In this document: one piece after another, positions 1 through 25,584 of the stretch
How positions within the stretch are numbered: position 1 is the stretch's first letter
How the letters are laid out: each line of letters opens with the position of its first letter
IMG/VR virus record: IMGVR_UViG_3300020200_000081
Coordinates: 1 to 35,558 of that record
Direction: 5' to 3' (one strand)
DNA: 35,558 nucleotides
From: a virus
Translations under genes and position numbers: made by a program
Notes under the pieces: generated by a model
Told to the model about the DNA's origin: nothing
Database searches by the model: none
What the model saw: the letters and a program-made list of their open reading frames with translations, nothing else

Positions 1-336
1 TTCAGAGTAAGCGATATTTGTATCAAGATTTTCAGCTATGTATTCAGCATACTTAATACTACTATCAAGATTTTCAGCAATATATTCAGAATAAGAGATA
101 TTTCTATCTAAGTTTTCAGCTAGATATTCGGAATAGGAGATATTTCTATCTACATTTTCAGCTAGATATTCAGAATAAGAGATATTTCTATCTAAGTTTT
201 CAGCTAAATACTTTGAGTAAGAAATATTTCTATCTACATTCTCAGCAAGATATTCAGAGTAAGAAATATTCTTATCTAGATTTTCAGCTAGATATTCAGA
301 ATAGTTAATTGCTTTTTCTAGATTTTCGGCTAGATA
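1..336 (-). repeat. Tandem 42-nt coding repeat (14-residue units), eight copies
   Basis: Eight consecutive 42-base units (1-42, 43-84, 85-126, 127-168, 169-210, 211-252, 253-294, 295-336) encode variants of NISYSEYLAENLDR in the prohead protease fusion. The units differ at several positions, so the array is not freshly duplicated. Degenerate versions continue to about 440, and the array probably runs past the window start. The exact multiple of three and the conserved YLAEN core show protein-level selection. Confidence 0.9.
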
Positions 337-1203
337 GTCATTATGAGAAATAATTTTCTCAGTTCTTGTTTTCAGGTCTTTGTTTTCATTAACAACGACT
401 TGAATTTTCTCAGCGAGATAATCTAAATATTTAACTACTTGACCGTTAGTCTTATTAAGTTCATCATAATACTCAATAAGTTTTTCAACTTTTCTCGGTT
501 CAACACTACCTTTGGTGATAGCTGTTTTTACCTGTTGTTTTGTTGAAGCGATCTCATTAATTAAATAATTTGAATAGTCCGTGAGTTGTCTTTTTGTAAC
601 AAATTCGTTTTTGTTCATATTAAAAAGTTCATTTATTTTGGACTCGTTGGATACTTCATATATCCTAAAGTTGCTTTTATTATTGAATCCTAAAGATTCA
701 TTGATTGAAGTCATCTTAGCTGAAGCAAATCCAGGATCTGCTACAATGTCATAAGTAAATAGTTTTTTGAGTGTTACTGATCCGTCGGACTCAGTAACAC
801 CAGCTGCTCTCGAGGAAACAAAGATCGGACAACCATCGTCGACAAGTGATTTAGCCTCTTTACCCCAATAAGTTGATAGTAGTTTAATTCTACCATCTAC
901 TCTGTTTTCATCTTTGTGGTATCTAGCTTCTAGAACTAGGTGGGAAGCTCTTGAAAGAGATGTATCAAAAACATCCGGGTGATCAAACTCGCCGTAGACG
1001 ACACCCATGTTTTCAATTCTTTCATTTAACTCGTTTAGTGCTGGAATAAACTTATTCGCAGTGTAGATTCTTTCGTTACGATTTTTCTTATCGAACTCTG
1101 TAAAAATACCACCTAGAACATAATTATTCCCTTTTGATGATGATGCGCTCTCATTTACCCTAAGCGGATTTGCGTTGTTTTCAACAATTAGTATAGGTTT
1201 CAT
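1..1203 (-). CDS. Prohead protease (gp21-like) fused to repetitive scaffold-like region, partial at the window edge
   Basis: The frame opens at ATG 1203-1201 and reads 401 codons to base 1 without a stop, so the C-terminus lies outside the window. Residues about 40-135 match the T4 gp21/S80 prohead protease pattern: NERIYTANKF, then YGEFDHP with the likely catalytic His75, then IFVSSRAAG with the likely catalytic Ser130 or Ser131. This family matures the prohead by cleaving scaffold and capsid proteins. From about residue 270 onward the protein becomes a 14-residue repeat (NISYSEYLAENLDR type), heptad-compatible and probably coiled coil. Inference: protease and internal core scaffold (T4 gp21 and gp22 roles) are joined in one chain. 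T4 gp21 is only about 210 residues. An AATATATAA promoter-like element lies just upstream. Confident for protease, moderate for scaffold. Confidence 0.8.
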   Translation of the reverse strand, partial: MKPILIVENNANPLRVNESASSSKGNNYVLGGIFTEFDKKNRNERIYTANKFIPALNELNERIENMGVVYGEFDHPDVFDTSLSRASHLVLEARYHKDENRVDGRIKLLSTYWGKEAKSLVDDGCPIFVSSRAAGVTESDGSVTLKKLFTYDIVADPGFASAKMTSINESLGFNNKSNFRIYEVSNESKINELFNMNKNEFVTKRQLTDYSNYLINEIASTKQQVKTAITKGSVEPRKVEKLIEYYDELNKTNGQVVKYLDYLAEKIQVVVNENKDLKTRTEKIISHNDYLAENLEKAINYSEYLAENLDKNISYSEYLAENVDRNISYSKYLAENLDRNISYSEYLAENVDRNISYSEYLAENLDRNISYSEYIAENLDSSIKYAEYIAENLDTNIAYSE

Positions 1204-1280: not shown

Positions 1281-2987
1281 CTACTTATTTAGAATCCATT
1301 TTTTATTACCACAATTCCAAACTCTTATGTATCCAAGTTCTTGTGTTATTTGCTCTTCTGTTTTGTTTGGATCCGCCCCTTTTTTTACAAGTAAGTGTTT
1401 TCTGTAGTTAAAGCGGTGCTTTCTAATACCATTTACTACATACCAAAATCCAGGTCTTGAATCTCCCAAATAATCAAAACCTAAAGTTTCATATAGATCC
1501 CCTTGTGAGATCATATTATCTGAGTAGGTTTGTATTTGTAGCCAAGAATAATTATTTTTAAAATGTTTTAATAATTTTGAGGCACTTCCCGGGCAACTGG
1601 TATAATTTCTATTACAAAATCTAGTCAATTCCCATATGCCTTCGCCACCTTTTCTAGAAATAGGTAATCTTATTTTAGAAAAACACATAAGTGATATTAA
1701 TTCTGATTCGTAGTACAATCCCAACCTTACCGAAGATTTACAATCTCCTTGTAGATGATTATCCTCTAGGAACTTTTTTGATTCTAGATAGGTCGCTTCC
1801 TTTATTTCACATTTTCTAGCCCAAATACGAAAAGTTGGTCTTTTTAACTTATTTATTATAAAAGATTTAACAATATCCTCTTTAGTCAGATAATCATCTT
1901 CCCAAATTGTGTAGAGTTTTATTCCTAGTTCTTCACACACTTTCATTTTTTCTAGATGGTAATCTTTTGCTTTAAATCTAGATGAATGCCAAAAAACTCC
2001 ATTAAATTCGAATGCAATTTTAAGATCTGGTATATAAAAATCAAGCTCTTTAGGATATATTACTGATTTATCATTCATAAGAACTTCGCCATCAAAATTT
2101 TCCTGAAATATTTTTAATAATTCTTCCTGTTTCAATGAACTAGTCTCACCTATAGGATGACATATAGTACATAGTGGTGTTGAGTTTTTAATTCTTGTGT
2201 AAAACTGATAGGTTAAGATGTTGAAATTATTTGAACATTTCTTACATTGAAAATTCAAATTGGTTGTATCTGTATCCCTATCAAATCCTAGAAATGTATA
2301 GTCTGATGGATTTATTTTTTCTTCAATTCTATCCTTATAGTTTTTGTAAAACTCGGTGATTGTTTTTCTATGAACTTCAGGGTTAGACCATGGATGTTCT
2401 GTGCCCCATCTCTGTAGAGAACTTTTCTTGAAAGATTCCTTCCAAACATCAATATTTTCCCTGAAACTTTTAACTCTCTTTTGTAATATATCTTTATTCT
2501 TTGATGGATTATCAACATTCCAGTTTTTGATGAGCGTTTCTTTTGATTTATTTTTTATAATATCATCAGACATAGGTGAGTTCCCACCCCATTTGCTTTG
2601 ATTGGTTTTTATTATTTTATTACGAATGGTGGGTGATTCACTTGGTGTTTTAGTTCCCCACTTTTCAAGTGATTTAGTTTTTTTTAGATCTTTTATGTCC
2701 GGATCAGATGAAATGCATTTTGTTGAACAATAAGAAATGTAACCCAAAGTTGAATTTTTGTATTTGGTGTGATTTTGACAGCCATCTCTTTTACATGTTG
2801 GACGAATAGAAATCCGATGATATGATAAATAAACCTTTTCTTTGAATGGTAAATCATTTAACTCATTTTCTTTGCAGAAATTTAGAATATCTAAATAATG
2901 TTCTGGATAGTGATATCTAACATAGGATTCTTTTGACATTTTTCCTGAAACATCATATTTCAATAGTTTATCAAAATCCTCTAACAT
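1281..2987 (-). CDS. Free-standing homing endonuclease, VSR-like (EDxHD / PD-(D/E)XK type)
   Basis: 568 residues. The N-terminal part has a Cys-rich segment (CKRDGCQ ... YCSTKC), then several repeats of the form K-x-x-x-x-K-W-G-x-x-x-P-x-x-x (for example LQRWGTEHPWSNPEVHRK), which look like NUMOD-type DNA-binding repeats. A second zinc-finger-like pair follows (CKKC ... CTIC). The nuclease core is in the middle: ELDFYIPDLKIAFEFNGVFW, then a His/Lys segment (YHLEKMKVCEELGIKLYTI) and WEDDYL. This is the VSR-like arrangement known from phage homing endonucleases such as I-Bth0305I. The C-terminal about 150 residues form another conserved-looking domain (WELTRFCNRN ... FDYLGDSRPGFWYV). The gene sits alone between two morphogenesis genes, with its own promoter-like site and terminator, as expected of a selfish insertion. 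Confident of the nuclease class; target site unknown. Confidence 0.75.
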   Translation of the reverse strand: MLEDFDKLLKYDVSGKMSKESYVRYHYPEHYLDILNFCKENELNDLPFKEKVYLSYHRISIRPTCKRDGCQNHTKYKNSTLGYISYCSTKCISSDPDIKDLKKTKSLEKWGTKTPSESPTIRNKIIKTNQSKWGGNSPMSDDIIKNKSKETLIKNWNVDNPSKNKDILQKRVKSFRENIDVWKESFKKSSLQRWGTEHPWSNPEVHRKTITEFYKNYKDRIEEKINPSDYTFLGFDRDTDTTNLNFQCKKCSNNFNILTYQFYTRIKNSTPLCTICHPIGETSSLKQEELLKIFQENFDGEVLMNDKSVIYPKELDFYIPDLKIAFEFNGVFWHSSRFKAKDYHLEKMKVCEELGIKLYTIWEDDYLTKEDIVKSFIINKLKRPTFRIWARKCEIKEATYLESKKFLEDNHLQGDCKSSVRLGLYYESELISLMCFSKIRLPISRKGGEGIWELTRFCNRNYTSCPGSASKLLKHFKNNYSWLQIQTYSDNMISQGDLYETLGFDYLGDSRPGFWYVVNGIRKHRFNYRKHLLVKKGADPNKTEEQITQELGYIRVWNCGNKKWILNK

Positions 2988-6857: not shown

Positions 6858-7709
6858 TTATGAAAGTAGTGTGAAATACTCCTTGAAGTGCTTAAGACGA
6901 TCTGCAAGACCGATAGTTCCACCATTTACTCTTTTTGTAACAGCTGTTACTGTAGCTTCATCACTACCTTTATCACAAATAGCCCATAGTTTATTAGAAT
7001 CAAAAAAGAAAGCAGCTGATGCTAGTGGATATTTACTAGCTACTAGATCTGGGTTACCAACTGTATCTTCACCGATAAACTTTGCGAAGTTTGTATAGTT
7101 TGATTTACCGGTTAATTGAATATAACCACGTCCTCTGAATTTGTAACCCTCTTTTGTAGATTCGTCACCGTTACCCATACGACCACCATATACTTTTGAA
7201 GCTATCTTTTCTGGATTTTTAGCGTAAGAATCAGCAGTAGCCCCAGGGAAATATTTTGGAAATATCTTTTTTAGACCATCTGCAGAATAGTTCAGGTTTT
7301 CCTGAATATGCTTAAATCCACCAGATTCGTGTCCACATTGTGCTAGAAAATGAGCTAGTCGAAGTGGTGTGGTAATGTTGAATTTTTTTGATGTATCCGG
7401 AATTTGAGCGATCACAGCATCTGGAATATGCCCTTTTAGTTTTTCAAGTTTGAAATTTGAATCTGTTGGAAATACTACATCTTCTTTGATTGGTTTTGCA
7501 GCGGCTGGTGCAGTAGATGTAGCTACCGCGGGAAACATCTTAGCCCATGTGCCATCACCTACAATACCATCAGCAGTTAAGCCATTGGCTGCTTGCCATT
7601 CTTTCACTTTCTTTTCAGTTCCAGGACCGAACACACCATCAGCGGTCAATCCCAATTTTTGTTGAAGTTTTTTTACTTCTTCTCCTTTTGAATTTAATTT
7701 AATTACCAT
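6858..7709 (-). CDS. Endolysin: peptidoglycan-binding domain plus GH19 chitinase-like lysozyme
   Basis: 283 residues. Residues 1-60 are a PG_binding_1 domain, with LNSKGEEVKKLQQKLGL and the TADGVFGPGT / TADGIVGDGT pattern. An Ala/Pro linker follows (60-75). Residues 85-283 are a glycoside hydrolase family 19 domain with HFLAQCGHESGGF (catalytic Glu128 expected), QENLNYSADGL (second acid Glu137), and the YKFRGRGYIQLTGKSNY substrate-cleft motif. It should cut the glycan backbone of peptidoglycan at the end of infection. There is no signal peptide, so release would need a holin; the two-TM protein at 16602-16952 is a candidate. The start ATG at 7709 lies 22 bases after a TATATATA element. Confidence 0.9.
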   Translation of the reverse strand: MVIKLNSKGEEVKKLQQKLGLTADGVFGPGTEKKVKEWQAANGLTADGIVGDGTWAKMFPAVATSTAPAAAKPIKEDVVFPTDSNFKLEKLKGHIPDAVIAQIPDTSKKFNITTPLRLAHFLAQCGHESGGFKHIQENLNYSADGLKKIFPKYFPGATADSYAKNPEKIASKVYGGRMGNGDESTKEGYKFRGRGYIQLTGKSNYTNFAKFIGEDTVGNPDLVASKYPLASAAFFFDSNKLWAICDKGSDEATVTAVTKRVNGGTIGLADRLKHFKEYFTLLS

Positions 7710-7748: not shown

Positions 7749-8153
7749 TCATTTATTTTTCATAGCATTCTCAAGTGATTGACGAAGAGCAGAGGAAAAT
7801 TCTGTTCTCTCGAAAGGTAGTTTTTCATCTTGAAGTTGCAGAATAGTAGAACTCACAGAGGTTTTATTTGATCCTTCTCCGATGAATTCCTTTCCATCAA
7901 TAATAACTTTTGTTTTTACTATTGTTTTCTTTTGTTTGAACTCAAAAGGTCCAACTCTAATACCTTTTGTGGGAGCTTCGATTGAAAGTATCTCTACGTT
8001 AATAGCCCTTCCACTATCACACAAGGTATATTTATCGTTAGCAAGTTCAGTAACGATTTGTTTTGCACCATAAGTTAGTTTTGTATCTTGAACACCGTTC
8101 ATATGAGCCAGTGTAATAACACTAGCTATGAAATAACAAATTATTGTATCCAT
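7749..8153 (-). CDS. Small protein with hydrophobic N-terminus, function unknown
   Basis: 134 residues. The first 17 residues (MDTIICYFIASVITLAH) are hydrophobic but lack the usual positive charges, so this could be a membrane anchor or a weak signal peptide. The rest is soluble and mostly beta, with VEILSIEAPTKGIRVGPFEF and KVIIDGKEFIGEGSNKT as prominent stretches, then a helical C-terminus. I do not recognise the family. Its position between the endolysin and the secreted-protein region suggests an envelope-related role, but this is only context. A TATATA element lies 42 bases upstream of the ATG, and a small hairpin (CTTGAAA/TTTCAAG, 8173-8192) sits in the leader. Confidence 0.65.
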   Translation of the reverse strand: MDTIICYFIASVITLAHMNGVQDTKLTYGAKQIVTELANDKYTLCDSGRAINVEILSIEAPTKGIRVGPFEFKQKKTIVKTKVIIDGKEFIGEGSNKTSVSSTILQLQDEKLPFERTEFSSALRQSLENAMKNK

Positions 8154-8212: not shown

Positions 8213-9382
8213 TTAATCCCGAATTTTAGAAGCAGTAGTTGTAGTCCTGTGTTTACCTTTAGAAACTATCCAGAGTTGCGAAGTATTCTCGAAAGTTCTC
8301 GTACTACTTCTTGGTTTTGTAAGGTAATAATTTGTTGTTGAGGAGTTTTGTTCTATATCTAATTTTTCTGTATTTGAAAAAACTGAATTTTCATTAACTA
8401 CTAAACCACTAGAAAAGCTAGACCAACAAGATCGAATATCAAAATAATTGATTGTAGAATCTGAGTTGAAATCACAGCTGTAAAAATCCCAACTTCTTGC
8501 TTCTGATAGAAAAGTTTTGATGAAGATTAGGTAATTCAAATCACCTTCAGATATAGTGTTTGTATAATTAGATGCGTCAACCGTAACTCGGTAGGTATAA
8601 TTTTGTGGATTAGAAAAAGAACTTACACCTTGAGAGTTTGTAGTAGTAGTTCCTTGTGAAGTCCAAGTTGAACTTTGAACAAAAGGTGTGAAAACAACAG
8701 ATGAGTTTGAAGTTCCACTCCAATTAACACCATTTCTACCAGAGGTGGTGATTATTTGTGAGCTATTGCTATTGGATATACCTTGAAGAGAAGCTAAAGA
8801 AGAGCATCCGGGATGCGAAAGAACATTTATTCTTATTGTATTGGATGTTTCTGATAGTATAATCTGAAAATCAGTAAAGAGTGTAGTGTTAGTTCTGCAG
8901 TTGTAGTAACCTATATGATAACTTACTATAAATCTTCTATCGGGTGAGGATCCCAAGGTCTGGTATCTTACAAAATAACTAGATATTGGAAATAGATCCA
9001 TGGCGTTTGCATGAATACCATTAGGTACTACATTGTTTGGAGAACCCCCCACAATATTACCACCCGTATTGGTAAATGATATCCATCCGTTTGAGGAAAT
9101 ATTTACTGTTGTAAAATTAGTTCCCCAGTAGTTGAAACTGAATCCGATCGGGAGGTTTGTTATTGTTTGGTCATCTCCAAGAGTAAGTGAAGTTCCTGAT
9201 GTTGATTCATATGCATATGCGGCTACACCTTGTGTATATCCAGTTTGACCTGGAACAAAATGTTCAACTGTTACTGGTATACCTTGTGGAATTCTACCAT
9301 CGATTGTTGAAACATTAATAACTTGGCCATGTATAGCACCGGATATTAAGAGAAAACAGGTAAGGATTCCAAATATTTTCAT
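8213..9382 (-). CDS. Secreted multidomain protein with dockerin-like module
   Basis: 389 residues from the ATG at 9382; a TTG at 9400 in the same frame is rejected because it lies inside the promoter-like sequence. MKIFGILTCFLLISGAIHGQ is a signal peptide. Residues about 20-225 are a beta-rich domain containing LPIGFSFNYWGTNFTTVNIS and SSNGWISF, a pattern common in Bacteroidota exoproteins. A short beta domain follows (TTTTNSQGVSSF...YTYRVTVDA). Next is a two-part dockerin-like segment: ISEGDLNYLIFIKTF, then DFNSDSTINYFDI, a D-x-N-x-D-x-x-I-x-x-x-D calcium loop. The C-terminal 60 residues are Ser/Thr-rich with no sorting domain seen. The module order TTNSxG-beta-dockerin is shared with the protein at 10934-12085 and, more loosely, with that at 14695-16596, so these look like paralogues. 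Role unknown; export beyond the inner membrane is likely. Confidence 0.75.
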   Translation of the reverse strand: MKIFGILTCFLLISGAIHGQVINVSTIDGRIPQGIPVTVEHFVPGQTGYTQGVAAYAYESTSGTSLTLGDDQTITNLPIGFSFNYWGTNFTTVNISSNGWISFTNTGGNIVGGSPNNVVPNGIHANAMDLFPISSYFVRYQTLGSSPDRRFIVSYHIGYYNCRTNTTLFTDFQIILSETSNTIRINVLSHPGCSSLASLQGISNSNSSQIITTSGRNGVNWSGTSNSSVVFTPFVQSSTWTSQGTTTTNSQGVSSFSNPQNYTYRVTVDASNYTNTISEGDLNYLIFIKTFLSEARSWDFYSCDFNSDSTINYFDIRSCWSSFSSGLVVNENSVFSNTEKLDIEQNSSTTNYYLTKPRSSTRTFENTSQLWIVSKGKHRTTTTASKIRD

Positions 9383-9397
9383 TTTAATATATATAAA
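9383..9397. promoter_or_regulatory. Promoter-like element, probably bidirectional
   Basis: TTTAATATATATAAA lies immediately before the ATG at 9382 on the minus strand. On the plus strand it is followed by an A-rich leader and an ATG at 9420, closely resembling the leader of the gene at 26899. It may have served two divergent genes before the IS insertion. Confidence 0.4.
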
Positions 9398-9419
9398 CAA
9401 AAAAACAAAAGTCCAAAGT

Positions 9420-9435
9420 ATGAAACTTATGAACT
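9420..9435 (+). pseudogene. Possible 5' fragment of a small gene split by the IS element
   Basis: ATGAAACTTATGAAC begins here on the plus strand after a promoter-like AATATATATAAACAAAA leader, then runs straight into the IS terminal hairpin. The remainder of the gene may be the open frame at 10683-10940. This is inference from position and leader similarity. Confidence 0.35.
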
Positions 9436-10588
9436 ACACAAGAGCTAAAGACTTTTGTGTTTCTACGGCACACGCATAATCCAATGATTTACGTTGAGTG
9501 ACGCTGGGTTGGTTCCTCAACCCGAAATTTTTTATATTTATGGCAGCATTTATGTCGCGATCATGTATTTCACCACAATCCTTACATACCCATTCACGAT
9601 CTGATAATTTCAGGTCCCTATTCTTCGCACCACAAGAATTACAAGTTTTACTAGATGGTTCAAACCTATCAATTACTTGGAGTTTTTTACCATACCAATC
9701 ACACTTGTATTCCAACATAGACTTGAGTTTGGACCAACCCATGTCTTGAATAGCTCTTGATAATTTACCATTCTTCATCATATTAGAAGTTCCAAGATCT
9801 TCAATACATATTGTATCATAATTATCCACTAGATATTTAGATACTTTATGTAAATAGTCTTCACGTTTATTCCTGATATGCTCATGAATTAATGATACTT
9901 TAAGTTTTTGGTTGTTGTAGTGATTTGATCCTTTTTGTTTTCTAGCTAAGGATCGCTGCTCAATCCTTAACCTATTTAATTCGGATTTGAAGAAGTCTTG
10001 GTTCTTGAACTTCTTACCATCCGATGTTATAGCAAAATCTTTAATTCCTAGATCCACACCAACACTAGTGTATAATTTAATTGGTTTCTTTTCTGGTTTG
10101 GACTCATGTGTATCTACCAATATACTTATATAATATTTATTAGTTGTTGATTTTGAAATAGTTGATGTCTTTATAGTTCCACTAAATTCTCTATGCATAT
10201 CTATATCCACCAATTTAAGTTTAGGTATGAATACTTTACCTTCCTTTAAATAGACACCTTGTGGTAATTGGAAACTCTGCTTTGAATATTTATTCTTAAA
10301 CTTTGGAAAACCACCACCTTTGAAGAATCCGATATAAGCACTATCTAGATTTTTCATAGCCATTTGGAGTGATTGACTCGGTGCGTCAATCCAGTCTATA
10401 TGGTCTTTGAGGTCTTTAATTTGATTATTTAGATCGAAAGCTGATATAGATTTTCTGTGTGATTTCCAAGCATTTATCTTTGTTTCTAATCCTAAATTAT
10501 AGACAAATCTAACTTGACCAAAGATATTTGATAGTTTAACTATTTGATCGTCAGTTGGTTATATTCTATATTTATAGGATTTTAACAT
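9434..10588 (-). pseudogene. tnpB: TnpB RNA-guided nuclease gene with a premature stop at codon 10
   Basis: The full frame starts at ATG 10588 with MLKSYKYRI, then TAA (10561-10559), then PTDDQIVKLSNIFGQVRFVY and onward to the stop at 9434. The TAA stands where TnpB proteins have Tyr in the conserved RIYPT motif, so one base change (TAT or TAC to TAA) broke the gene. The longest intact frame starts at ATG 10363 (309 residues). It keeps the RuvC residues (Asp104 in GVDLGIKDFA, Glu188 in CIEDL, Asp in IHDRDINAA) and the CNSCG/CKDCG zinc finger, but lacks the first 75 residues, which help bind the guide RNA. The protein end (TQKSLALV) is encoded inside the terminal palindrome. The guide (omega) RNA normally overlaps this 3' end. 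Probably inactive as a nuclease unless an internal start still gives a functional protein. Confidence 0.8.
9436..9460. repeat. IS terminal palindrome, tnpB 3' side (RE)
   Basis: ACACAAGAG, loop CTAAAGA, CTTTTGTGT: nine paired positions with one G-T. It overlaps the last codons of tnpB and matches the palindrome at the other end in its loop and inner stem. Confidence 0.7.
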
Positions 10589-10685: not shown

Positions 10686-10940
10686 TTGTCTTTGACCGTC
10701 AATATAAAACAAGTTCTAGATTGGGATATTTACGAAGAGCCGAAACTTGTTATTGAGTTACCAGAAAGAACATACAAAATAGCCTATAACAAAGCAAAAG
10801 ATATTTTTTACATTGATAGATACTATCTAGTAAATCAAATTGTAGGAAAAAGAGTAGTTGATAAAAATATTTTAGACGAGTTTAAGGAGTTTTTTTATGG
10901 CCAACTTTTTGATATTAATCAAAAGTATGGAGATCAATAG
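10683..10940 (+). CDS. Small protein, probably 5'-truncated by the IS element
   Basis: 85 codons counted from a GTG that lies within the IS palindrome, so that start is not credible as the original. The body is soluble, charged and well formed (VNIKQVLDWDIYEEPKLVIE, then YKIAYNKAKDIFYIDRYYLV and a helical end). It ends with TAG at 10938-10940, overlapping the convergent gene at 10934 by 7 bases, a typical phage packing that implies the 3' end is original. Joining the ATG fragment at 9420 (MKL...) to ACC GTC AAT (10697 onward) would keep one frame (MKLTVNIKQ...). The family is not recognised. No promoter of its own is visible after the insertion. Confidence 0.5.
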   Translation: MLSLTVNIKQVLDWDIYEEPKLVIELPERTYKIAYNKAKDIFYIDRYYLVNQIVGKRVVDKNILDEFKEFFYGQLFDINQKYGDQ

Positions 10941-12085
10941 ACTAAACTAGATTGATTAGTAAAACCAGGAGAAAGTAGATAAAAATTTGACACCCCTCCC
11001 GAAATCGGTGTAAAACTATAGGTTGTTAAAACTCCAGGGATAGAAACTCGTGTGTCTACTGTTCCAGATAAGAGATTATCCCACTGAGTTTCGGTAAAAA
11101 GTAAAGTTCTTTTTTGATAGCTAAGACCGTTTATTCTTCTTGATATAGTATAGATATCACCAACACTTATTCTAGTATCACCATTTAGTTCGTATTTGTG
11201 AAAGTGAATAGATTTAGTAGGTATCCTACCTAAAACTACACTATCAATACCTAAATAATCACTACTTGTTAAGTTTGATGAAACTGTAGGTATAGTAATT
11301 TCAATAGACCATTCATCACTAGCAGTTGTTGGCGAAGAATATGAATATTGACCTAGTGAGTTTGTTGTTTGAGTTGATTGAACTTGCCAACTACCCGGTA
11401 TAGTTGTTAAAATACCTAGTTCAGAGGTTTGCAGTGTATATGTAGATTGACCAGGTCTTTTCCATACAACTGTTAATCCATCCCCCCCACCATATTCTTG
11501 CATCCTTGCTCTGAAGGTATATTGTGTTCCAGCTACTAGATTTATGGTTCCGTAAATAGGACCACTCATACCGTGACCTCCATAATAACTTACAACAAAA
11601 GTTCCACCAATGAATAAATCACTTCCATCATCTGAGTTTATTCCAAAAGAATATTGACCAGTAACTTGAGGTATAAAAGTTCCAGAGACTTCAACAGAGT
11701 AAAAATCACCGTTGTTTGGTATAGTAGCACCTGCGTTTCTAAGAGTAGTAAAAGTAGTAAAGTTAAGACAAGTTGTTATAGGAAGAGTTCCCGTCCATCT
11801 TAGTTGAGTGTTGGAAAATCCAGTATTAAATAATCTATCAAAATCTGATGTAACTGTTGGGTACTGACCATATTGAGAAGTGTTTCCATTTCCAGCATGA
11901 GTTGAATAAACCCGAACATTAAGAGTCGAGGATAAGGCCGCTTGTGGAGATCTCTTAGATAATTTAGTAACTATATTTGGTATTGGTGTGCTGCCCTCAG
12001 CTCTAATTGTGCCTGAATGAGTGAAATTTTGAGCACCTACACCTAATGTTAGAAGAAGAAATAAAATAGAAAATAAACTCTTCAT
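10934..12085 (-). CDS. Secreted protein with PA14-like and dockerin-like domains
   Basis: 383 residues. MKSLFSILFLLLTLGVGAQ is a signal peptide. Residues about 45-230 resemble a PA14/GLEYA carbohydrate-binding domain: VSGTFIPQVTGQYSFGINSD, DDGSDLFIGG, then AGTQYTFRARMQEYGGGDG and LTVVWKRPG. A beta domain follows (TQTTNSLGQYSYSSP...WSIEITIPT). Next is a dockerin-like pair: LTSSDYLGIDSVVLGRI, then ELNGDTRISVGDIYTISRRI, where Glu replaces the first Asp of the calcium loop. No T9SS sorting domain is seen at the end. It is the last gene of the operon starting near 16980, and its ATG overlaps the stop of the upstream gene (12082-12085, ATGA). It is paralogous in its C-terminal half to the protein at 8213-9382. 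Probably a surface or extracellular binding protein; ligand unknown. Confidence 0.75.
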   Translation of the reverse strand: MKSLFSILFLLLTLGVGAQNFTHSGTIRAEGSTPIPNIVTKLSKRSPQAALSSTLNVRVYSTHAGNGNTSQYGQYPTVTSDFDRLFNTGFSNTQLRWTGTLPITTCLNFTTFTTLRNAGATIPNNGDFYSVEVSGTFIPQVTGQYSFGINSDDGSDLFIGGTFVVSYYGGHGMSGPIYGTINLVAGTQYTFRARMQEYGGGDGLTVVWKRPGQSTYTLQTSELGILTTIPGSWQVQSTQTTNSLGQYSYSSPTTASDEWSIEITIPTVSSNLTSSDYLGIDSVVLGRIPTKSIHFHKYELNGDTRISVGDIYTISRRINGLSYQKRTLLFTETQWDNLLSGTVDTRVSIPGVLTTYSFTPISGGVSNFYLLSPGFTNQSSLVY

Positions 12086-13599
12086 AATAAAATTTTAGTT
12101 CCGGTTAAAACTTGCCAGTTTAAAAAAGATTGATTTAGTTGATAAACACCTGAGAAACTTACAGTCCATTTGAATTTAGAGGTAACTTTCATATCGGTGT
12201 TTACCATCGGTATAATCAATAGGCCACTTTGATACCACTGACCGGCATAATAATATGTATAGGGTGAATAAACACCAAGACCTAAAAAGTTTATACCTAA
12301 AGAACGACCACCTTTGAAATTTGTAAATCCTCCACCCATAAGTGCCCAGTTTCTGAAATCTTGGTCGCCTAGTTTTCCAAAGGTGTAAGTAGTTCCAGCC
12401 ATAAGAGTAACTTTATTCATTTTTTGTGCGTTCAGAAGTGATGCTGTTAAAAACCAGTCCTCTTTAAAGTTTGTCATATAGGATGTTGAAAATATTCCCA
12501 TATAATCCTTTACTTTTAAAGATCCGTAACCTGATAAATTAAAAATATTTTGACCGGTTTGATAGTTAATATTGATACCTTTAATAAAAGTTTGATTAGT
12601 GTTCATATGAGTTAGTGAGGTATTGAAACGAAAATTATCGTTACCTGTCTTAGTGATATCTGAGTCGTTTCTTATAACGACGATATCACCAGTAGCTATA
12701 AGAGCACCGTTAGCTGCTCGAGAAGAACCTCTTGATGATTTTCCACCACCTGATGATCCAGATCCATCTCCACTACCACTTTCTCCTCCGCTTGATACTT
12801 GTTGATTCTGCTCACCTACAGCAGTTACACCACCTCCGGTTTCTGAACTTCCCTGTCCGGTCCCACCACCAGTATTACCACCTGGCCTTTGATTAGATCC
12901 ACCAGAGCCTGAATTGTTGCCGGGAGATGATGAGCCACCTGAGCCACCTGAGCCACCTGAGCCACCCGAACCACCTGAGCCACCCGAACCACCTGAGCCA
13001 CCCGAACCACCTGAGCCACCTGAACTACCACTGGTGCTACCTCCTTGTCCTCCAGAACTTGATCCATCACCACTACCACCAGAGCCAGAATTTCCTGATA
13101 CAGAACCACCTGAATTGTTTGAGTTTTCCGAACCCGAATTATTTTCTCCACCACTACTACCGTCACCACTACCTACTGAACCACTACCTACTGAACCACT
13201 ACCCATACCACCTATTGAACTTCCAATTGAACTAGCCATAGAAACAACTGAAGTGAGTGATGCTACACTATTCGCAGTAACACTTCCTATAAAGTTTGTA
13301 ACATTTGTAGCTTCACTCGCCGCTTCTGAAGCACAAGGATTTGCACCTGCTGGCAATGAGTTTCTAATTGAAGTTACCCATTGTTCGTAAGCACCCGCCT
13401 CTAATTCAGCATATGTAAAGTTTTTTGCTTGACCAGCAAAAAACATAGTAACTTGTGAACTTTGTGTTGTTAATTGAACGGATTGTTGTCTTCCGTTACA
13501 AGGGTTTATATAAGTATAGGTGAAATCCTGAGCTTTTACGCTCAAAATTCCACCTATACAAAGAGTGAATATTAAAGATAATAGAAATTTACCAACCAT
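12082..13599 (-). CDS. Exported protein: faintly CsgF-like N-terminus, Gly/Ser linker, predicted outer-membrane barrel
   Basis: 505 residues. MVGKFLLSLIFTLCIGGILSVKAQ-type signal peptide. The mature start, QDFTYTYINPCNG, faintly resembles the N-terminus of CsgF (aromatic beta strand followed by N-P...G), the part that sits in the CsgG pore; this is suggestive only. A helical region to about residue 130 precedes a very Gly/Ser-rich tract (about 130-290). From about residue 300 to the end, amphipathic strands alternate with turns (FNTSLTHMNTNQTFIKGINI, WFLTASLLNAQK, TLMAGTTYTFGKL and so on), as in an outer-membrane beta-barrel of about 200 residues. The gene starts inside the end of the CsgG-like gene (13589-13599) and is followed by an ATGA overlap, so the three are translationally linked. 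Function unknown; an outer-membrane partner of CsgG is my best inference. Confidence 0.65.
   Translation of the reverse strand: MVGKFLLSLIFTLCIGGILSVKAQDFTYTYINPCNGRQQSVQLTTQSSQVTMFFAGQAKNFTYAELEAGAYEQWVTSIRNSLPAGANPCASEAASEATNVTNFIGSVTANSVASLTSVVSMASSIGSSIGGMGSGSVGSGSVGSGDGSSGGENNSGSENSNNSGGSVSGNSGSGGSGDGSSSGGQGGSTSGSSGGSGGSGGSGGSGGSGGSGGSGGSGGSGGSSSPGNNSGSGGSNQRPGGNTGGGTGQGSSETGGGVTAVGEQNQQVSSGGESGSGDGSGSSGGGKSSRGSSRAANGALIATGDIVVIRNDSDITKTGNDNFRFNTSLTHMNTNQTFIKGININYQTGQNIFNLSGYGSLKVKDYMGIFSTSYMTNFKEDWFLTASLLNAQKMNKVTLMAGTTYTFGKLGDQDFRNWALMGGGFTNFKGGRSLGINFLGLGVYSPYTYYYAGQWYQSGLLIIPMVNTDMKVTSKFKWTVSFSGVYQLNQSFLNWQVLTGTKILL
12928..13027 (-). repeat. Gly-Gly-Ser coding microsatellite
   Basis: Tandem 9-base units (AGGTGGCTC/AGGTGGTTC on the coding strand) encode GGS repeats. 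An 18-base higher-order alternation is visible from ccacctgagccacccgaa. The tract is prone to length change by slippage in steps of whole codons. Confidence 0.85.
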
Positions 13600-14281
13600 T
13601 TTGCTCTAGACGCTTTACTAGGTTCATTGTAGCAACCTCTAAAGCTTTCTGAGTAGCAATACCAACAGTTGATTGGTCAAATCCCATTTCTGGATTCTTG
13701 AAGTAACCCTCACCAAATTGTGTGGATTGACCTTGACCAGAGGCAACGATATATTGTGAATTTTCTACGTTAACTAAACGAATTTGAATACCCATAATAG
13801 TTGTGTTGGTTTTCTTTAATTTACCTTTATCGTAGTTTTCACTATATGATACAGAAAAATCATAAATCTCTGCGTAAACGATATATTTTGGTAAGCGGAT
13901 ACCCTCCATTTTTAGTTTAGTTTTACCATCATCTAAACCATCAATCTTCTTTTCCCACGCATCCAACATTTGGTTTACAACAGCATCTTTTTCTTCAGTA
14001 AATTCGAAACGATTGGTATAAAGTAGATTTTCTACAATACGGTTAGATACACCAAGACCTAGTCTTTTTTCCCTTAGTTCAGGAAAAGTTTCCCAGAGTT
14101 CTTTGTTGACATTCAGTTTTGAAAGCTGTACGGTTTGTTTTTTACCCGTATAGGTTGAGATAGACTCTAATGTTCTATCTGTTTTTTCAAACTCTGCTTG
14201 GTATTGAGTAGTTGAAATGCTAGATTTACAACCTGCCAATACTAGAAGACTAAGTGAGAATATTGATAACCACTTTTTCAT
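13589..14281 (-). CDS. CsgG-like outer-membrane lipoprotein
   Basis: 230 residues. The lipoprotein signal MKKWLSIFSLSLLVLAGCKS has a clear LAGC lipobox. The body follows the CsgG/HfaB pattern: LGLGVSNRIVENLLYTNRFE (activator helix), EEKDAVVNQMLDAWEK, then YIVYAEIYDFSVSY, IMGIQIRLVNVENSQYIVAS, GQGQSTQFG and a C-terminal helix ATQKALEVATMNLVKRLE. In bacteria CsgG forms a nonameric outer-membrane channel that exports curli subunits. CsgG homologues are also known in some T4-like cyanophages, where their role is unresolved. It sits in the middle of a membrane/exoprotein operon with an ATGA overlap upstream and an 11-base overlap downstream, suggesting coordinated translation with both neighbours. 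Confident for the family, not for the cargo. Confidence 0.75.
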   Translation of the reverse strand: MKKWLSIFSLSLLVLAGCKSSISTTQYQAEFEKTDRTLESISTYTGKKQTVQLSKLNVNKELWETFPELREKRLGLGVSNRIVENLLYTNRFEFTEEKDAVVNQMLDAWEKKIDGLDDGKTKLKMEGIRLPKYIVYAEIYDFSVSYSENYDKGKLKKTNTTIMGIQIRLVNVENSQYIVASGQGQSTQFGEGYFKNPEMGFDQSTVGIATQKALEVATMNLVKRLEQNGW

Positions 14282-14679
14282 TCTTCGCCCTCCTGTTCTT
14301 GTTGTTTTGCTCTAAGTCTCTTCATCCTTTCGGCTGGAGTTTCTTTCTTTTCTTCAACAGGTGCTGCAGCTGCTGGAGCTGGAGCTGATTGAGCTGGTGC
14401 TACCTCTCTGATAGTTTCTTTTTCTCTGATTACAGTAGTTCCACCACCACCCCCTGCGGATGCGTTACTTTGGTTGTTGTTTTCCAAGTTAAGGTTAATG
14501 ACCGGAGCGGCAGCCGGAGCTGCTTGCTCGGTTTTTTCACCTTCATTGTCATTTCCGCCACCTCCGAAGAGAGTAGTAGAAATCCATACACCACCACCTG
14601 TTACTACAGTTGCTAGTGTGCCTACGATGGTTTTTTTCAATCCACCCCAGGAGCTATCGTTTTCGGTTTCTTCTGCCAT
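14278..14679 (-). CDS. Small single-TM protein with charged disordered tail
   Basis: 133 residues. Residues 13-40 (LKKTIVGTLATVVTGGGVWI, then STTLFGGGG) form one transmembrane segment after a short acidic N-terminus. The rest is low complexity: Ala/Pro-rich stretches, an Asn-rich stretch (INLNLENNNQSN), GGGGG, and a highly charged end (MKRLRAKQQEQEGEE). There is no signal-peptidase site, so the tail probably projects from the inner membrane. The stop overlaps the CsgG-like start by 4 bases. It could be a periplasm-spanning linker (TonB- or spanin-like) serving the cassette; this is inference from topology only. Confidence 0.6.
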   Translation of the reverse strand: MAEETENDSSWGGLKKTIVGTLATVVTGGGVWISTTLFGGGGNDNEGEKTEQAAPAAAPVINLNLENNNQSNASAGGGGGTTVIREKETIREVAPAQSAPAPAAAAPVEEKKETPAERMKRLRAKQQEQEGEE

Positions 14680-14694
14680 ATTTTTTATTTTTTT

Positions 14695-16596
14695 TTATTT
14701 TTTAATAAACTTATATATTTTTTGTTTCGTGTCTGTAGTTAATCTAACAAAATATAAGCCAGGCTCGAGAGTGTTTGTTTCGATTCTTCTGGTGACGATT
14801 TGATCTTGTGCTACGAATTGTGTTTCTCTACTGTGGATTTTTCCAGATAAATCGAAAATTTCTGAAATTAGATTGCCTGGTGCTGTTTGGAAATAATCTA
14901 CATACATTTCATCAATAACTGGATTTGGATAAATTCTAAATCCGTTGACAAGCTGATCTACAAGATCTCTAGCTCTTCTACCATTAACGATTGTAGCATC
15001 AGTAGGTGAAGGAATAATATTTAAATCTTGTGCTTTTTCACTACCAGCCGCTTTGTTAATGATTTGTATAGGAGCTTCTTCCCAGTTATTGTTTAAGATT
15101 TCAAATTTGAAGTTAAACATTTGTGTAGGATTGGTGATTAGAGAAGGTGCCATTTTTGATTCGTGACCACCCCATAAGATTTCACCTGATTTAGAAGAGA
15201 TAAATGAGTTCCAATAACTAGCTTCTGGACCTACAGATACACCTACAAACTTGAAGATTTGAGGATCATATTTAAGACCAATTTGTGATGCTCCTACTTT
15301 ATTTCCGTGAGTGATAAGTGTAACATTAACATCTACCGTATTATCACCTGAAATAGTAAGTTTTGGAATTCTAAATTGAACTGAATCCTTAATGTTTTGG
15401 TAGATCATACCTTGATCAAGAACATAAGATGTTCCAGAATTTCCAGTATTAAGTCTCTGTATTTGGAAAGATACGTTGTTAAGACCTGTTCCAGTAACAT
15501 CACCAAGAACATATCCAATGTAACTCATAGAACTCATACCATTAAGTAATAGATCAATGAGAGTTGTCCCGATAATTGAACTTTGGAATGTGTTCGGGTT
15601 GGTTATTATTTGATCGTATTCTCCTGGTGTATAATACCTTACGTTGTATTCGTTGGCAACAACTGGTGACCATGTCGTTCTACCAGTAGCTAGACGATTG
15701 AAGATAAGATAAGCATCTGAAACTGAAATAGAACTACTTCTATTTACGTCAGCTTGTTGAAACTCATAAGATTGAGCCGTGTCAGCGTAGATACTCATAT
15801 CAGAAAGACGATAAGCATCAGTGATATTAATAGCTGAGTTATCGGATAAAGTATCTAAGTTTGATACTAATTTTACATCGTAGAAAGAAGTATCGTATGG
15901 TATTTTGATATCAGCAATACCAATGGCATCGGTAGTGAATCTTTGACCTCTTTGATATGTCTGTGCTGACTTTAACTTGAAGTCATAAGCAAAAGGCATT
16001 CCACTCGCTGGTGTGCCATCAACATTCAATACCGAAACCGGTATGGAAATAGTATCCATCTGGAATCTACCACCTAAGTTGTATGTTCCTAGGGTATTAT
16101 CGATACCACTTGTAGTTGTAGCTATATTGTTGTATGTTGGAATGCCCGTCACTCTTAGTGAGTCTACCGATGAAGGGTTGAAACCAACTGCGTGTGGTAG
16201 TAGAACTTCAAACACAGCACCATCTGGCCAATCAAAAACAGCAGATGAACCAGTATAAATAGCAGTTGCGTTAACCCAACCTGGTTGAGAATAATACGAA
16301 CCGTATTTAGTAATGATTGAAGTAGTAGTAGGTCCCCATTTAACAATAGGCTGTTTAAATGAAGATTGTGGATAGAAAAACCTTACCTGAAAACCAGCAT
16401 AGTTCGTTAGGGTTGGATTGTGATAGTGAAGATAAACCTTAGTAGTATCTTGAAGAATGCTACCAAGTGTAAACACAGTGTCAATAATGAAGTGTGGTGA
16501 AGATGAGTTTGGTGAGATCAAAACTTCATTTCTACCGTTTTGGCCGAACGCGTTGAGCGTGATTAGGGCAAAAAGCCCAACAAGAAACTTTTTCAT
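14695..16596 (-). CDS. T9SS-sorted exoprotein with cohesin-like and dockerin-like modules
   Basis: 633 residues. MKKFLVGLFALITLNAFGQN is a signal peptide. Residues about 25-170 are a beta domain. A short beta segment (about 185-240) leads to a dockerin-like pair: INITDAYRLSDMSIY, then DVNRSSSISVSDAYLIFNRL. Residues about 400-545 resemble a cohesin fold (VDVNVTLITHGNKVGASQIG, LKYDPQIFKFVGVSVG, then a closing beta segment). Residues 552-633 are a type A T9SS C-terminal sorting domain: GFRIYPNPVIDEMYVDYF, EIFDLSGKI, LEPGLYFVRL, then a Lys-rich end KQKIYKFIKK. Such domains direct Bacteroidota proteins through the type IX machine to the cell surface. The phage protein would therefore use the host T9SS. 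It is the second gene of the operon, 5 bases after the two-TM gene stop and 15 bases before the next start. Confidence 0.8.
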   Translation of the reverse strand: MKKFLVGLFALITLNAFGQNGRNEVLISPNSSSPHFIIDTVFTLGSILQDTTKVYLHYHNPTLTNYAGFQVRFFYPQSSFKQPIVKWGPTTTSIITKYGSYYSQPGWVNATAIYTGSSAVFDWPDGAVFEVLLPHAVGFNPSSVDSLRVTGIPTYNNIATTTSGIDNTLGTYNLGGRFQMDTISIPVSVLNVDGTPASGMPFAYDFKLKSAQTYQRGQRFTTDAIGIADIKIPYDTSFYDVKLVSNLDTLSDNSAINITDAYRLSDMSIYADTAQSYEFQQADVNRSSSISVSDAYLIFNRLATGRTTWSPVVANEYNVRYYTPGEYDQIITNPNTFQSSIIGTTLIDLLLNGMSSMSYIGYVLGDVTGTGLNNVSFQIQRLNTGNSGTSYVLDQGMIYQNIKDSVQFRIPKLTISGDNTVDVNVTLITHGNKVGASQIGLKYDPQIFKFVGVSVGPEASYWNSFISSKSGEILWGGHESKMAPSLITNPTQMFNFKFEILNNNWEEAPIQIINKAAGSEKAQDLNIIPSPTDATIVNGRRARDLVDQLVNGFRIYPNPVIDEMYVDYFQTAPGNLISEIFDLSGKIHSRETQFVAQDQIVTRRIETNTLEPGLYFVRLTTDTKQKIYKFIKK

Positions 16597-16601
16597 GGCT
16601 A

Positions 16602-16952
16602 TTATTCTTCTGTATTTCCAGATGAGAGAGACACTCCGTCTTCTTCATCCATCTTTTGAACGAGCATTTTATCTCTGTCTTCGTTTGAGAACCAGAAATC
16701 AATTACTTTGTTCAAATTACCAACAAAAGCACCTAGAAGGATAAGTAAAAGTTCTTTCCAGGCTTCGGCAATTGTAGCTTTGAATAGTACGGCCATGACT
16801 ATACCAAAGATTATAAAGAAAAATGTTGATAGAATAATCAGTGTAATCTTCCATCTATTAGACTGCATAGTTTGCAGCATGAAAGTGAACCGTTCGTCCG
16901 GCTCAACTTTTTGGTACTCTGTGTTGTAGAGTAGTTTTGTAAGTAGTCCCAT
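16602..16952 (-). CDS. Two-TM membrane protein, holin candidate
   Basis: 116 residues with two hydrophobic segments: ITLIILSTFFFIIFGIVMAV (about 36-58) and WKELLLILLGAFVGNLNKVI (about 68-90), then FWFSNEDRDK and an acidic tail. The second segment plus the FWF end resembles the holin-like pattern common in phages (LL-GA-G--NKVIDFWF). It is the first gene of the envelope operon, with a TATATA element 17 bases upstream. It might be the holin for the endolysin at 6858-7709, or an accessory of the secretion cassette. No charge or dual-start signature settles this. Confidence 0.5.
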   Translation of the reverse strand: MGLLTKLLYNTEYQKVEPDERFTFMLQTMQSNRWKITLIILSTFFFIIFGIVMAVLFKATIAEAWKELLLILLGAFVGNLNKVIDFWFSNEDRDKMLVQKMDEEDGVSLSSGNTEE

Positions 16953-23439: not shown

Positions 23440-25584
23440 ATGCCTGCACAAAAAAAAGAAGAAGTCGTAAGACAGATAGTATTCACAACCAAGATGGTTG
23501 AGAATGTTACTAAAAGTATCAACGATGGTGTTGTAGTTAAAAGATTTCAAAATCCATGGTTTCAAAATGAAATCGGTGTAAGAAGAAGTGGGATTGTGTT
23601 CAACAGAACAGAAGAAGAAGTTCAAGAATACATAAAATGTAAGCTTGATATTAAATATTTCGCCCAAAAATATTGTAAAATAAAAACCGAAGATGGAACG
23701 ATTACTCACATCCAACTTCGTGATTATCAAAAAGAAATCTTGGATTTATTTTCTAAAAATAGATTTTCTATATTGTGTTCAAGTAGACAGGTAGGAAAAA
23801 CTGTCAATACCGCAATCACAATATTACACTTTTTACTATTCAATAACGATAAAAACGCGATGATCGTAGCAAACGTCGCGGCTACTACTATTGAAATTGT
23901 AGATAAGATCAAATCTATTTATGTTCTACTACCTTTCTTTTTGAAGGCTGGTATAAAAAACTGGAATCAACGAAGTATAGTTTTTGATAATGGATGTAGA
24001 ATAAAAACCGCAGCTAGATCTAAAACACCAGCTATTGGTTTTACGATTGACCTTCTTTATATGGATGAGTTCGCACATATACCTTCAAATATCATCGAGC
24101 CATACTATACGGCTGCTTACCCAACAGTATCTGCTATACAGAACTCAAAAATTATTATTACCTCAACACCAAACGGTATGAATCTTTTCTATAAACTCTT
24201 AACTGCAGCCGAAAGACCAGAGGGTGATCCTCTTAAAAACAACTACAAAGCTATGCGAGTTTATTGGTATCAAGTTCCGGGTAGATTTGTAACTTATTAC
24301 CGATTGAATCCATTTAAGATGAGAGATCTAGGTCTCACTAAAGAGATGGTATTCGAGCTTGCTGAAGAAGAGTTTAAAGATTCTACAAAAGTTTTACTTA
24401 AATACAATCCAGATTTTGATAAAGATGTTGTTCATGTGTACAATAATGATATTATAACCGAAGAGGTATCTAAGGGGTTTAGATTTTTAACACCTGGTGG
24501 AAAGGAAATTCATATCTCCCAAATAAGTGAAGTTTCAACATGGAAAGAAGAAGCCATTAAAGATATCGGCGGAGAAGATGCCTTCAATCAAGAGTTTGGA
24601 TTAAGATTTATTAACTCATCAAGATCGCTGCTTTCAGAGAGTATTATAGAGGGTCTCATTAAGGGTAAGAAAAATTACGAGTGGCAAGAGATTGATAAGA
24701 TGGAGACCTTTCTCAATTTTTCTTATCAAGATCTTAAATGGATAGATGATCCTGATGTTTTTTCTCAAGAAAGAAGAAAGTTAGTTAAAGGTATAATCTC
24801 GATTGATATTTCAGAAGGTTTAGGTCAAGATTATTCAGTCATGAATATATTTAAGATTTCACCTAAATCTATGGACACCGTGGAAGCTTTCAGCACAGAT
24901 TATAAAAACCTTTCTGATTTCTTTTGCTTAGAACAAATCGGGTTATTTAGAAGTAATGTTATATCGGTCAAACAACTAGCTGAACTTTTTTATGTTCTAG
25001 CATTTGAGTTTTTCGATCCTGATAATTTTAAGGTAGTTTTAGAAATTAATACCTACGGAAATGAGTTTTTAGCACACTTGCCCCATGTGTTTGACGGTAA
25101 TAATAACTATGGTAGTAATATATTCTTTCGATATAAACATAAATCTGATGCAGTAGAAGAAAAAGTCGGACTAAAATTAGGTGACAATAAAAATCTTCTA
25201 GTTAAAGATTATCAAGATAATATGAACAAGAAAAATATTATCATCAACAACGAAGATAATATACGAGAGATAACTACTTTTGTTAAACACACGACTGCTT
25301 TTGGAAACACACGTTATGCGGCTGATATTGGAAATGATGATATTGTTATGACCGTTGTAAACTCTTCATCTGTTTTTCAAAAACATCCCTATAGAGAAAT
25401 TGTCGAGGATGCCGCACCTACCATCGCGGGAACTGAGCTCTATAAACATTTTCAATCTATTTTAGGTAATCAAGTTGATGAAAACTCAATCAACTACTCT
25501 TCAATTATTAAAGAGCAGAGGCATAGAAAGGATAGACTAAAAAAGATTCTAGGTTACGAAAAAAGTCCTTGGGCTAGAGATTAA
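23440..25584 (+). CDS. Terminase large subunit (gp17-like)
   Basis: 714 residues. The ATPase half has Walker A SSRQVGKT (114-121), Walker B LLYMDE (205-210, catalytic Glu210) and coupling motif TSTPNG (241-246). The RNase H-like nuclease half has GIISIDISEGLGQDYS (Asp456), VVLEINTYG (Glu535) and ADIGNDDIVM (Asp633/634). All catalytic residues needed for DNA translocation and headful cutting are present. T4 gp17 is 610 residues; the extra length lies partly around 310-380 between the two halves. The start is chosen at ATG 23440, 16 bases after the divergent TATATA element. The stop overlaps the stop of the convergent clpS gene in a shared TTAA. Confidence 0.95.
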   Translation: MPAQKKEEVVRQIVFTTKMVENVTKSINDGVVVKRFQNPWFQNEIGVRRSGIVFNRTEEEVQEYIKCKLDIKYFAQKYCKIKTEDGTITHIQLRDYQKEILDLFSKNRFSILCSSRQVGKTVNTAITILHFLLFNNDKNAMIVANVAATTIEIVDKIKSIYVLLPFFLKAGIKNWNQRSIVFDNGCRIKTAARSKTPAIGFTIDLLYMDEFAHIPSNIIEPYYTAAYPTVSAIQNSKIIITSTPNGMNLFYKLLTAAERPEGDPLKNNYKAMRVYWYQVPGRFVTYYRLNPFKMRDLGLTKEMVFELAEEEFKDSTKVLLKYNPDFDKDVVHVYNNDIITEEVSKGFRFLTPGGKEIHISQISEVSTWKEEAIKDIGGEDAFNQEFGLRFINSSRSLLSESIIEGLIKGKKNYEWQEIDKMETFLNFSYQDLKWIDDPDVFSQERRKLVKGIISIDISEGLGQDYSVMNIFKISPKSMDTVEAFSTDYKNLSDFFCLEQIGLFRSNVISVKQLAELFYVLAFEFFDPDNFKVVLEINTYGNEFLAHLPHVFDGNNNYGSNIFFRYKHKSDAVEEKVGLKLGDNKNLLVKDYQDNMNKKNIIINNEDNIREITTFVKHTTAFGNTRYAADIGNDDIVMTVVNSSSVFQKHPYREIVEDAAPTIAGTELYKHFQSILGNQVDENSINYSSIIKEQRHRKDRLKKILGYEKSPWARD

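Follow-up and report, generated by a model that had tools for sequence, protein, structure and literature searches.

The locus and its genes

The window analysed here, 35,558 bases long, corresponds to an entire IMG/VR virus record. On its minus strand, positions 14695-16596 form a single open frame encoding a protein of 633 amino acids, and many stops occur on the plus strand of this interval. The initial annotation had singled out this gene as a phage gene with a type IX secretion system (T9SS) sorting domain, without giving its strand. Its assignment to a phage is borne out by the PHROGs matches in the window, which comprise large terminase, tail sheath, prohead protease and also endolysin. 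The gene belongs to a cassette whose proteins have no confident family in PHROGs and whose features are as follows.

16602-16952, minus strand: small membrane protein (two hydrophobic segments) whose gene lies 5 bp upstream of the scaffold gene, without confident family (sequence)
14695-16596, minus strand: scaffold protein of 633 aa ending in a T9SS type A sorting domain (profiles; the four-part architecture recurs in 84 unique full-length homologues)
16540-16596, minus strand: Sec signal peptide of the scaffold, residues 1-19, MKKFLVGLFALITLNAFGQ (sequence)
16072-16509, minus strand: N-terminal cohesin-like domain, residues ~30-175 (beta sandwich in the AF2 model)
15847-16059, minus strand: Ig-like 'X' module, residues ~180-250, adjoining the dockerin-like segment (AF2 strands)
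15691-15843, minus strand: dockerin-like segment, residues 252-302 (PF00404, 15.5 bits, below the cut-off of 22.9)
14977-15387, minus strand: C-terminal cohesin, residues 404-540 (PF00963, 29.7 bits, cut-off 24.1)
14698-14943, minus strand: T9SS type A C-terminal domain (CTD), residues 552-633 (TIGR04183, PF18962, motifs and fold)
14278-14679, minus strand: small protein with one hydrophobic segment and an Ala/Pro-rich tail, its end overlapping the lipoprotein gene by 4 bp (sequence)
13589-14281, minus strand: lipoprotein with lipobox LAGC and CsgG fold (Foldseek, structure superposition, hhalign)
12082-13599, minus strand: secreted barrel protein, predicted (sequence alone)
10934-12085, minus strand: secreted PA14-domain protein with a C-terminal X-dockerin-like module (PF07691, 50.4 bits, cut-off 24)
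8213-9400, minus strand: second secreted protein, with a related C-terminal dockerin-like module, in a TTG-started ORF (sequence comparison)
7749-8153, minus strand: small protein, a second family kept at the far end of the cassette (distant kin of the CsgG-type proteins of the Ignavibacteriales locus L095)
6858-7709, minus strand: endolysin (PG-binding and GH19), a neighbour whose membership of the cassette is uncertain (profile matches)

The operon runs from the small membrane protein through the scaffold, the small protein, the lipoprotein and the barrel protein to the PA14 protein; its first two intergenic gaps measure 5 and 15 bp, and the next three gene pairs overlap by 4, 11 and 4 bp. 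Beyond the PA14 gene lie a TnpB insertion, the second dockerin-like adhesin, the second small family protein and the endolysin, which is also found near the cassette in two other loci (L096 and L097). Scaffold, lipoprotein, barrel protein and adhesin keep the same order in nearly all loci and occur together in 144 of the 175 fetched, a set in which loci partly overlap and in which contig ends explain many of the incomplete cases. In other phages, the small membrane protein gene sits between scaffold and lipoprotein; a role of this protein as holin was considered and rejected for want of family support. The small protein at 14278-14679 matched no family in Pfam or PHROGs, and that at 7749-8153 gave no Pfam match over cut-off.

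The inserted gene, of the IS605-family OrfB/TnpB type, occupies positions 9434-10363 (minus strand) between the two adhesin genes, and no TnpA gene was noticed. The interval at this site measures ~1.27 kb in the window versus ~171 bp in a relative (L015), which points to a recent insertion or loss of the element. Elsewhere in the window, the prohead protease frame (1-1203, minus strand) leaves the record and contains many near-identical 14-residue repeats (SEYLAENLDRNISY), and between the protease and sheath genes lies a 568-aa protein (1281-2987, minus strand) that by eye has the look of a homing endonuclease.

The T9SS sorting domain

The type A pattern described by the initial annotation in the last 82 residues is recovered in full, since the C-terminus reads YPNP...DLSGK...LEPGLYFVRL...KQKIYKFIKK and thus contains each of the motifs then listed, including the Lys-rich end. 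The proposed membership of TIGR04183 and PF18962 is likewise established, with 42.1 bits for the former (cut-off 23, E 6.4e-11, residues 555-633) and 39.3 bits for the latter (cut-off 27, E 7.9e-10, residues 555-631); a search of the whole record found no other domain of this type. In an alignment of the window protein with 33 homologues sharing 25-77% identity with it, all 34 members match PF18962 independently. The invariant residues of the domain are PNP 557-559, G585, G613, Y615 and the C-terminal K632, the role of the C-terminal Lys in type A tails having been described (PMC10994853). Structurally, the modelled residues 552-633 fit the CTD of NucA (8glk_D), a T9SS substrate, with a Z of 11.2 and an rmsd of 1.9 over 75 residues. 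The dN/dS ratio of the domain is ~0.13-0.25 in every pair with estimable dS, and that of the scaffold relatives 0.25 or less in all such cases. Taken together, the matches in all 34 members, the invariant residues, the superposition on NucA and the low dN/dS argue against a chance resemblance, and it is virtually certain that the tail is a real T9SS type A domain.

Clients of the T9SS are carried by Sec to the periplasm, where they fold; their CTD is then recognized and they pass through SprA to PorV, ending either released or attached to lipopolysaccharide, and for this route the type A tail is both necessary and sufficient (PMC10202324, PMC10994853). Judged from its sequence, the scaffold of this virus of Bacteroidota is very probably exported by the host T9SS.

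Architecture of the scaffold

The initial annotation had rightly identified the tail and had missed what precedes it, namely the cohesin and dockerin modules, as well as the operon of secreted partners and its conservation in many phages. From its sequence, the 633-aa protein is predicted to be a scaffold and not an enzyme, its order being signal peptide, cohesin-like domain, Ig-like and dockerin-like modules, cohesin and T9SS tail. According to a crude hydrophobicity heuristic, the signal peptide has a hydrophobic core in 98% of the unique homologues and ends in [AGS]Q in 96% of them. The AF2 model of the scaffold is of modest confidence (pLDDT 69).

The C-terminal cohesin is the better defined of the two. 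PF00963 covers residues 408-527 in the window protein and is matched by 33 of the 34 aligned sequences, and the jelly-roll fold superposes on the cohesin 6kge_A with a Z of 16.8 and an rmsd of 2.2 over 133 residues. In the N-terminal sandwich, several homologues show a second, weaker PF00963 match (E 3e-5 to 3e-4). Between the two sandwiches, the Ig-like module, named 'X' by analogy with X-dockerin dyads, is common to scaffold and adhesins in profile comparison. The dockerin-like segment is the most conserved domain of the scaffold (88-98% identity between variants); PF00404 is detected at E<=0.1 in 16 of 34 scaffold homologues, with a best E of 2e-4. In the window, the scaffold stays below the PF00404 cut-off and the two adhesins give no match to this family. 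One calcium loop resembling DxNxDxxITxxD is evident in many relatives, and in the window's segment only the second repeat looks canonical.

The adhesins and their possible docking

The secreted proteins encoded downstream share their C-terminal end with the scaffold. Comparison by hhalign shows the last ~150 residues of the adhesins to be homologous to the X-dockerin region of the scaffold (probability 99.3, E 2.8e-20), a match that indicates kinship and says nothing on binding. Their N-terminal ends vary, with Lectin_C in 18, PA14 in 10 and Laminin_G_3 in 7 of 39 adhesins, plus rarer domains; the second secreted protein of the window has no Pfam domain. Signal peptides are present by a crude hydrophobicity rule, that of the protein at 8213-9400 starting at an internal Met. 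That the C-type lectins are varied by a diversity-generating retroelement was considered and rejected, as no reverse transcriptase occurs in 16 records.

One tail-bearing gene is found in 9 of the 13 phage contigs tested and in the cultured phage described below, and two in the other 4 of 13. As the single tail in most contigs is that of the scaffold, the adhesins would need another anchor. The simplest reading of the shared module is that the lectins are mounted onto the scaffold by cohesin-dockerin contact, which seems fairly likely even though the dockerin matches are weak (best PF00404 match among adhesins, E 1.3e-3). Separately, a second T9SS-tailed protein was observed in a carrier phage of 135 kb (G009; L175:2014-3570, minus strand); it is beta-rich, 518 aa long and has no other Pfam domain.

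A cultured carrier is available in Flavobacterium phage vB_FspM_immuto_2-6A (immuto), whose host is Flavobacterium sp. LMO8 and whose scaffold homologue shows 30% identity. The scaffold, lipoprotein and barrel genes keep their order in immuto, and the lectin gene comes first. Here, the scaffold is divided between two genes, gp14 encoding a signal peptide with cohesin-like and dockerin parts, and gp15 its own signal peptide with cohesin and tail. Such a split is what would be expected if the parts can join through cohesin-dockerin contact, and the signal peptide of gp15 suggests that the half made of cohesin and tail can stand as a separate export unit.

The lipoprotein and the barrel protein

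In a Foldseek search with the AF2 model of the lipoprotein, which is of modest confidence (pLDDT 63), CsgG occupies ranks 1-24 (E 5e-8), and superposition by VIA on CsgG gives a Z of 12.4 over 180 residues. Comparison by hhalign with three members of the CsgG family yields a probability of 93 and an E of 2.5e-7. At the sequence level, none of the phage lipoproteins reaches the cut-off of CsgG (PF03783) and the profile finds no useful match in the PDB; a chromosomal homologue from Ignavibacteriales, ~41% identical to the lipoprotein, does pass PF03783 (28.6 bits over 20.8). It is therefore solely through the fold, this Ignavibacteriales bridge (L095) and the profile comparison that the lipoprotein is tied to CsgG. 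On this modelling, the phage lipoprotein has the CsgG fold, and its kinship with CsgG is probable. Where CsgG has the two membrane hairpins per subunit that form its pore, the hairpins of the lipoprotein look, by eye, shorter and polar.

In the barrel protein, a small N-terminal domain, marked by two conserved PC motifs, is followed by a Gly/Ser-rich linker, and the C-terminal ~210 residues probably resemble an outer-membrane beta barrel, as far as the sequence can tell; the protein has no Pfam or PDB relatives. A kinship of its N-terminus with CsgF, suggested by eye from FTYTYINPCNG, was dropped because none of 38 members matched Pfam CsgF and the PDB gave no support.

The Ignavibacteriales chromosome contains two adjacent CsgG-type genes (L095:9980-13850) related to both phage families; the neighbouring gene encodes a large secreted protein that shows a weak match of transglutaminase type. 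This genome has at least 150 T9SS tails. The locus may possibly represent a cellular source of the CsgG-type families of the phages.

Distribution and movement between phages

Relatives of the lipoprotein and of the scaffold were collected from viral contigs, and the last scan returned 199 stretches encoding relatives, 80 of which were kept, on contigs of up to 373 kb. Scaffolds with four modules (cohesin 1, X-dockerin, cohesin 2 and tail) are encoded by 162 full-length ORFs of the fetched loci, corresponding to 84 unique sequences in 51 clusters. The remaining cohesin- or tail-bearing ORFs of the family in this list are explained by cuts at contig ends, by the immuto split or, in one case, by locus L096. 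In the latter, a phage-like contig assigned to a Flavobacterium MAG, a 597-aa cohesin protein (L096:6406-8199) lies at the scaffold position without a T9SS tail and is followed by a small lipoprotein; it possibly uses a different anchor.

Among 84,980 species genomes, a scan with the lipoprotein alignment found three loci, namely the Ignavibacteriales relative, which is without the phage cassette, and two phage-like contigs binned in Flavobacterium and Bacteroidetes MAGs. A tblastn search of isolated phages with the lone CTD gave no matches, a result that reflects limited sensitivity since immuto does have a CTD.

The terminases of the carriers range from 95% down to ~30% identity with that of the window. 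In some carriers, the terminase matches at ~33% while the lipoprotein is 68-76% identical; in others the values are ~44% and ~40%, respectively. Terminases that lie far apart while lipoproteins stay alike indicate that the cassette moves between distant phages and is kept. In three loci (L083, L088 and L173), the terminase matches that of the window (23440-25584) in two pieces, residues 11-282 and 367-683, so that ~85 residues of one long frame are skipped; either the window's terminase has gained an insert specific to its lineage, or those three have undergone a deletion.

Relation to known systems

The closest precedent is Cryophage, in which an endoglucanase, a GH39 protein and a PA14 protein each end in a type A tail (Bellas et al. 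2020, PMC7468147). Common to both cases are phage genes with type A T9SS domains, presumed export by the host T9SS and, for one Cryophage protein, the PA14 domain. In Cryophage, the tail is carried by the binding or enzymatic proteins themselves, whereas here it is on a cohesin scaffold whose PA14 or lectin partners end in dockerin-like modules. The CsgG-fold partner is a feature of the present case, and neither cohesin nor dockerin is mentioned in the Cryophage passages found (PMC7468147). The view of the initial annotation that T9SS export is unusual for phage proteins thus holds only in part: it is not unprecedented, because the Cryophage cargo came earlier (PMC7468147), as did UniProt A0A6J5M064, a structural relative of the window protein from an uncultured phage labelled 'Secretion system C-terminal sorting domain'.

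Partial curli operons (CsgG/CsgF) of pelagimyophages and of the Melnitz phage resemble the cassette by their CsgG-fold outer-membrane lipoprotein and their small operon with secreted proteins (PMC7029224, PMC9004378). They differ by their hosts, and the present lipoprotein stays below the CsgG Pfam threshold with the CsgF family unmatched; named adhesion domains and a T9SS scaffold are present here and absent from the curli phages. Similarly, the scaffoldins and anchoring scaffoldins of cellulosomes carry cohesins on a surface-anchored protein and have partners ending in a dyad of the X-dockerin type. In the present case, by contrast, the anchor is a T9SS tail, the system is phage-encoded, dockerin matches are weak, and lectin or PA14 partners stand in place of polysaccharide hydrolases.

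RemA and other type A gliding adhesins of Flavobacterium share surface adhesion, the type A tail and PorV with the proposed system (PMC10202324); they are cellular single proteins, whereas here adhesins would be docked on a scaffold. The PelB/PelC exporter also pairs a CsgG-fold lipoprotein with a separate outer-membrane barrel, and PelC is among the fold matches of the lipoprotein; it differs in exporting polysaccharide, and its likeness to the phage pair is seen at the level of fold and arrangement.

A search of open-access literature yielded no description of a phage cohesin/dockerin display cassette, and the relevant reports on phages with cohesin/dockerin and T9SS are those on Cryophage and the curli phages only. 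Phage T9SS cargo as such was already known from one paper (PMC7468147).

Proposed function of the cassette

Phages are known to alter host surfaces. We lean, with some reserve, towards the reading that the protein encoded at 14695-16596 serves as the surface scaffold in a cassette by which the phage displays adhesins and through which the infected surface turns adhesive. Sec would carry the scaffold, lectin-type adhesins, lipoprotein and barrel protein across the inner membrane, in keeping with their signal peptides. The host T9SS (SprA/PorV) would then accept the type A tail, which would be cleaved off, the scaffold reaching the outside and either staying on the surface or being released. Its cohesins would bind the dockerin-like C-termini of the downstream PA14, C-type-lectin or laminin-G-like proteins, and one docking anchor for all adhesins would allow the phage to swap the ligand-binding end. 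The CsgG-fold lipoprotein and the barrel protein may help the adhesins, which have no tail, to pass the outer membrane or to settle on it; alternatively, these adhesins may ride out with the scaffold.

By sticking to glycans of neighbouring cells or particles, the infected cell would have hosts near when virions are freed. Keeping host cells close, or 'sibling capture', has been proposed for pelagiphage curli genes (PMC7029224). For the present cassette, adhesion or capture of neighbouring hosts as its purpose is a proposal drawn from domain names, plausible yet short of probable. The distantly comparable Melnitz phage, which has CsgGF but no known adhesin, caused no clumping (PMC9004378), which counts against an adhesive reading.

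Surface export is equally part of superinfection exclusion, in which the displayed scaffold and lectins would mask or occupy receptors and block the adsorption of other phages or, in a variant, an abundant client would compete for the T9SS that supplies gliding adhesins. Bellas et al. propose roles in inter-strain competition or superinfection for the Cryophage cargo (PMC7468147), and variable binding domains would suit changing competitors. Exclusion has no obvious need for several interchangeable lectins on a scaffold, however, and would matter less at the late stage of expression suggested, from position only, by the adjoining endolysin and sheath genes; we consider it unlikely.

Two further readings appear improbable to a similar degree. 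In the first, the secreted scaffold and lectins would attach to progeny virions when the cell lyses or afterwards and improve their adherence to glycans or hosts, a reading favoured by the frequent role of lectin, PA14 and laminin-G-like domains in ligand binding and by the position of the cassette, which has structural genes around it in the window. Against it, the signal peptides and the T9SS tail point away from assembly in the cytoplasm, none of the structural genes seen in the window bears a cohesin, and in most contigs the scaffold's cohesins are the only ones. As for a lysis or envelope module, the lipoprotein and barrel protein would open the outer membrane, or time its opening, with the T9SS protein as a partner there; the adjacent endolysin, the small membrane protein encoded 5 bp away from the scaffold gene and the similar role proposed for Melnitz CsgGF (PMC9004378) would fit, but cohesins, dockerin-like tails and swapped lectin domains are left unexplained, and both the CsgG and CsgF Pfam families are unmatched by the phage proteins. 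The reading of the gene as a host fragment or chimeric assembly product instead of a phage gene, which its domains typical for secreted proteins of Bacteroidota and the two carriers binned in bacterial MAGs could suggest, has practically no chance in view of the 199 virus stretches, the complete genome of the cultured immuto, the flanking terminase, sheath, protease and endolysin genes, and the lipoprotein scan of species genomes, in which just one of the three loci is cellular and a distant relative.

Implications

Returning to the adhesin-display reading, its fullest form is a widespread, horizontally exchanged phage system that would assemble lectins into a cellulosome-like array on the infected cell by means of the host T9SS, with a phage-made CsgG-type device for the docked lectins, and would reprogram adhesiveness before lysis as a means of sibling capture; we hold this composite only tentatively. 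With the cassette present in a cultured pair of phage and host, immuto and Flavobacterium sp. LMO8, laboratory experiments can decide the question. The cassette gives the idea of sibling capture, left open for the pelagiphage curli genes, concrete and testable adhesins. If true, a phage scaffold that borrows host secretion to mount interchangeable sugar-binding proteins would represent a new strategy.
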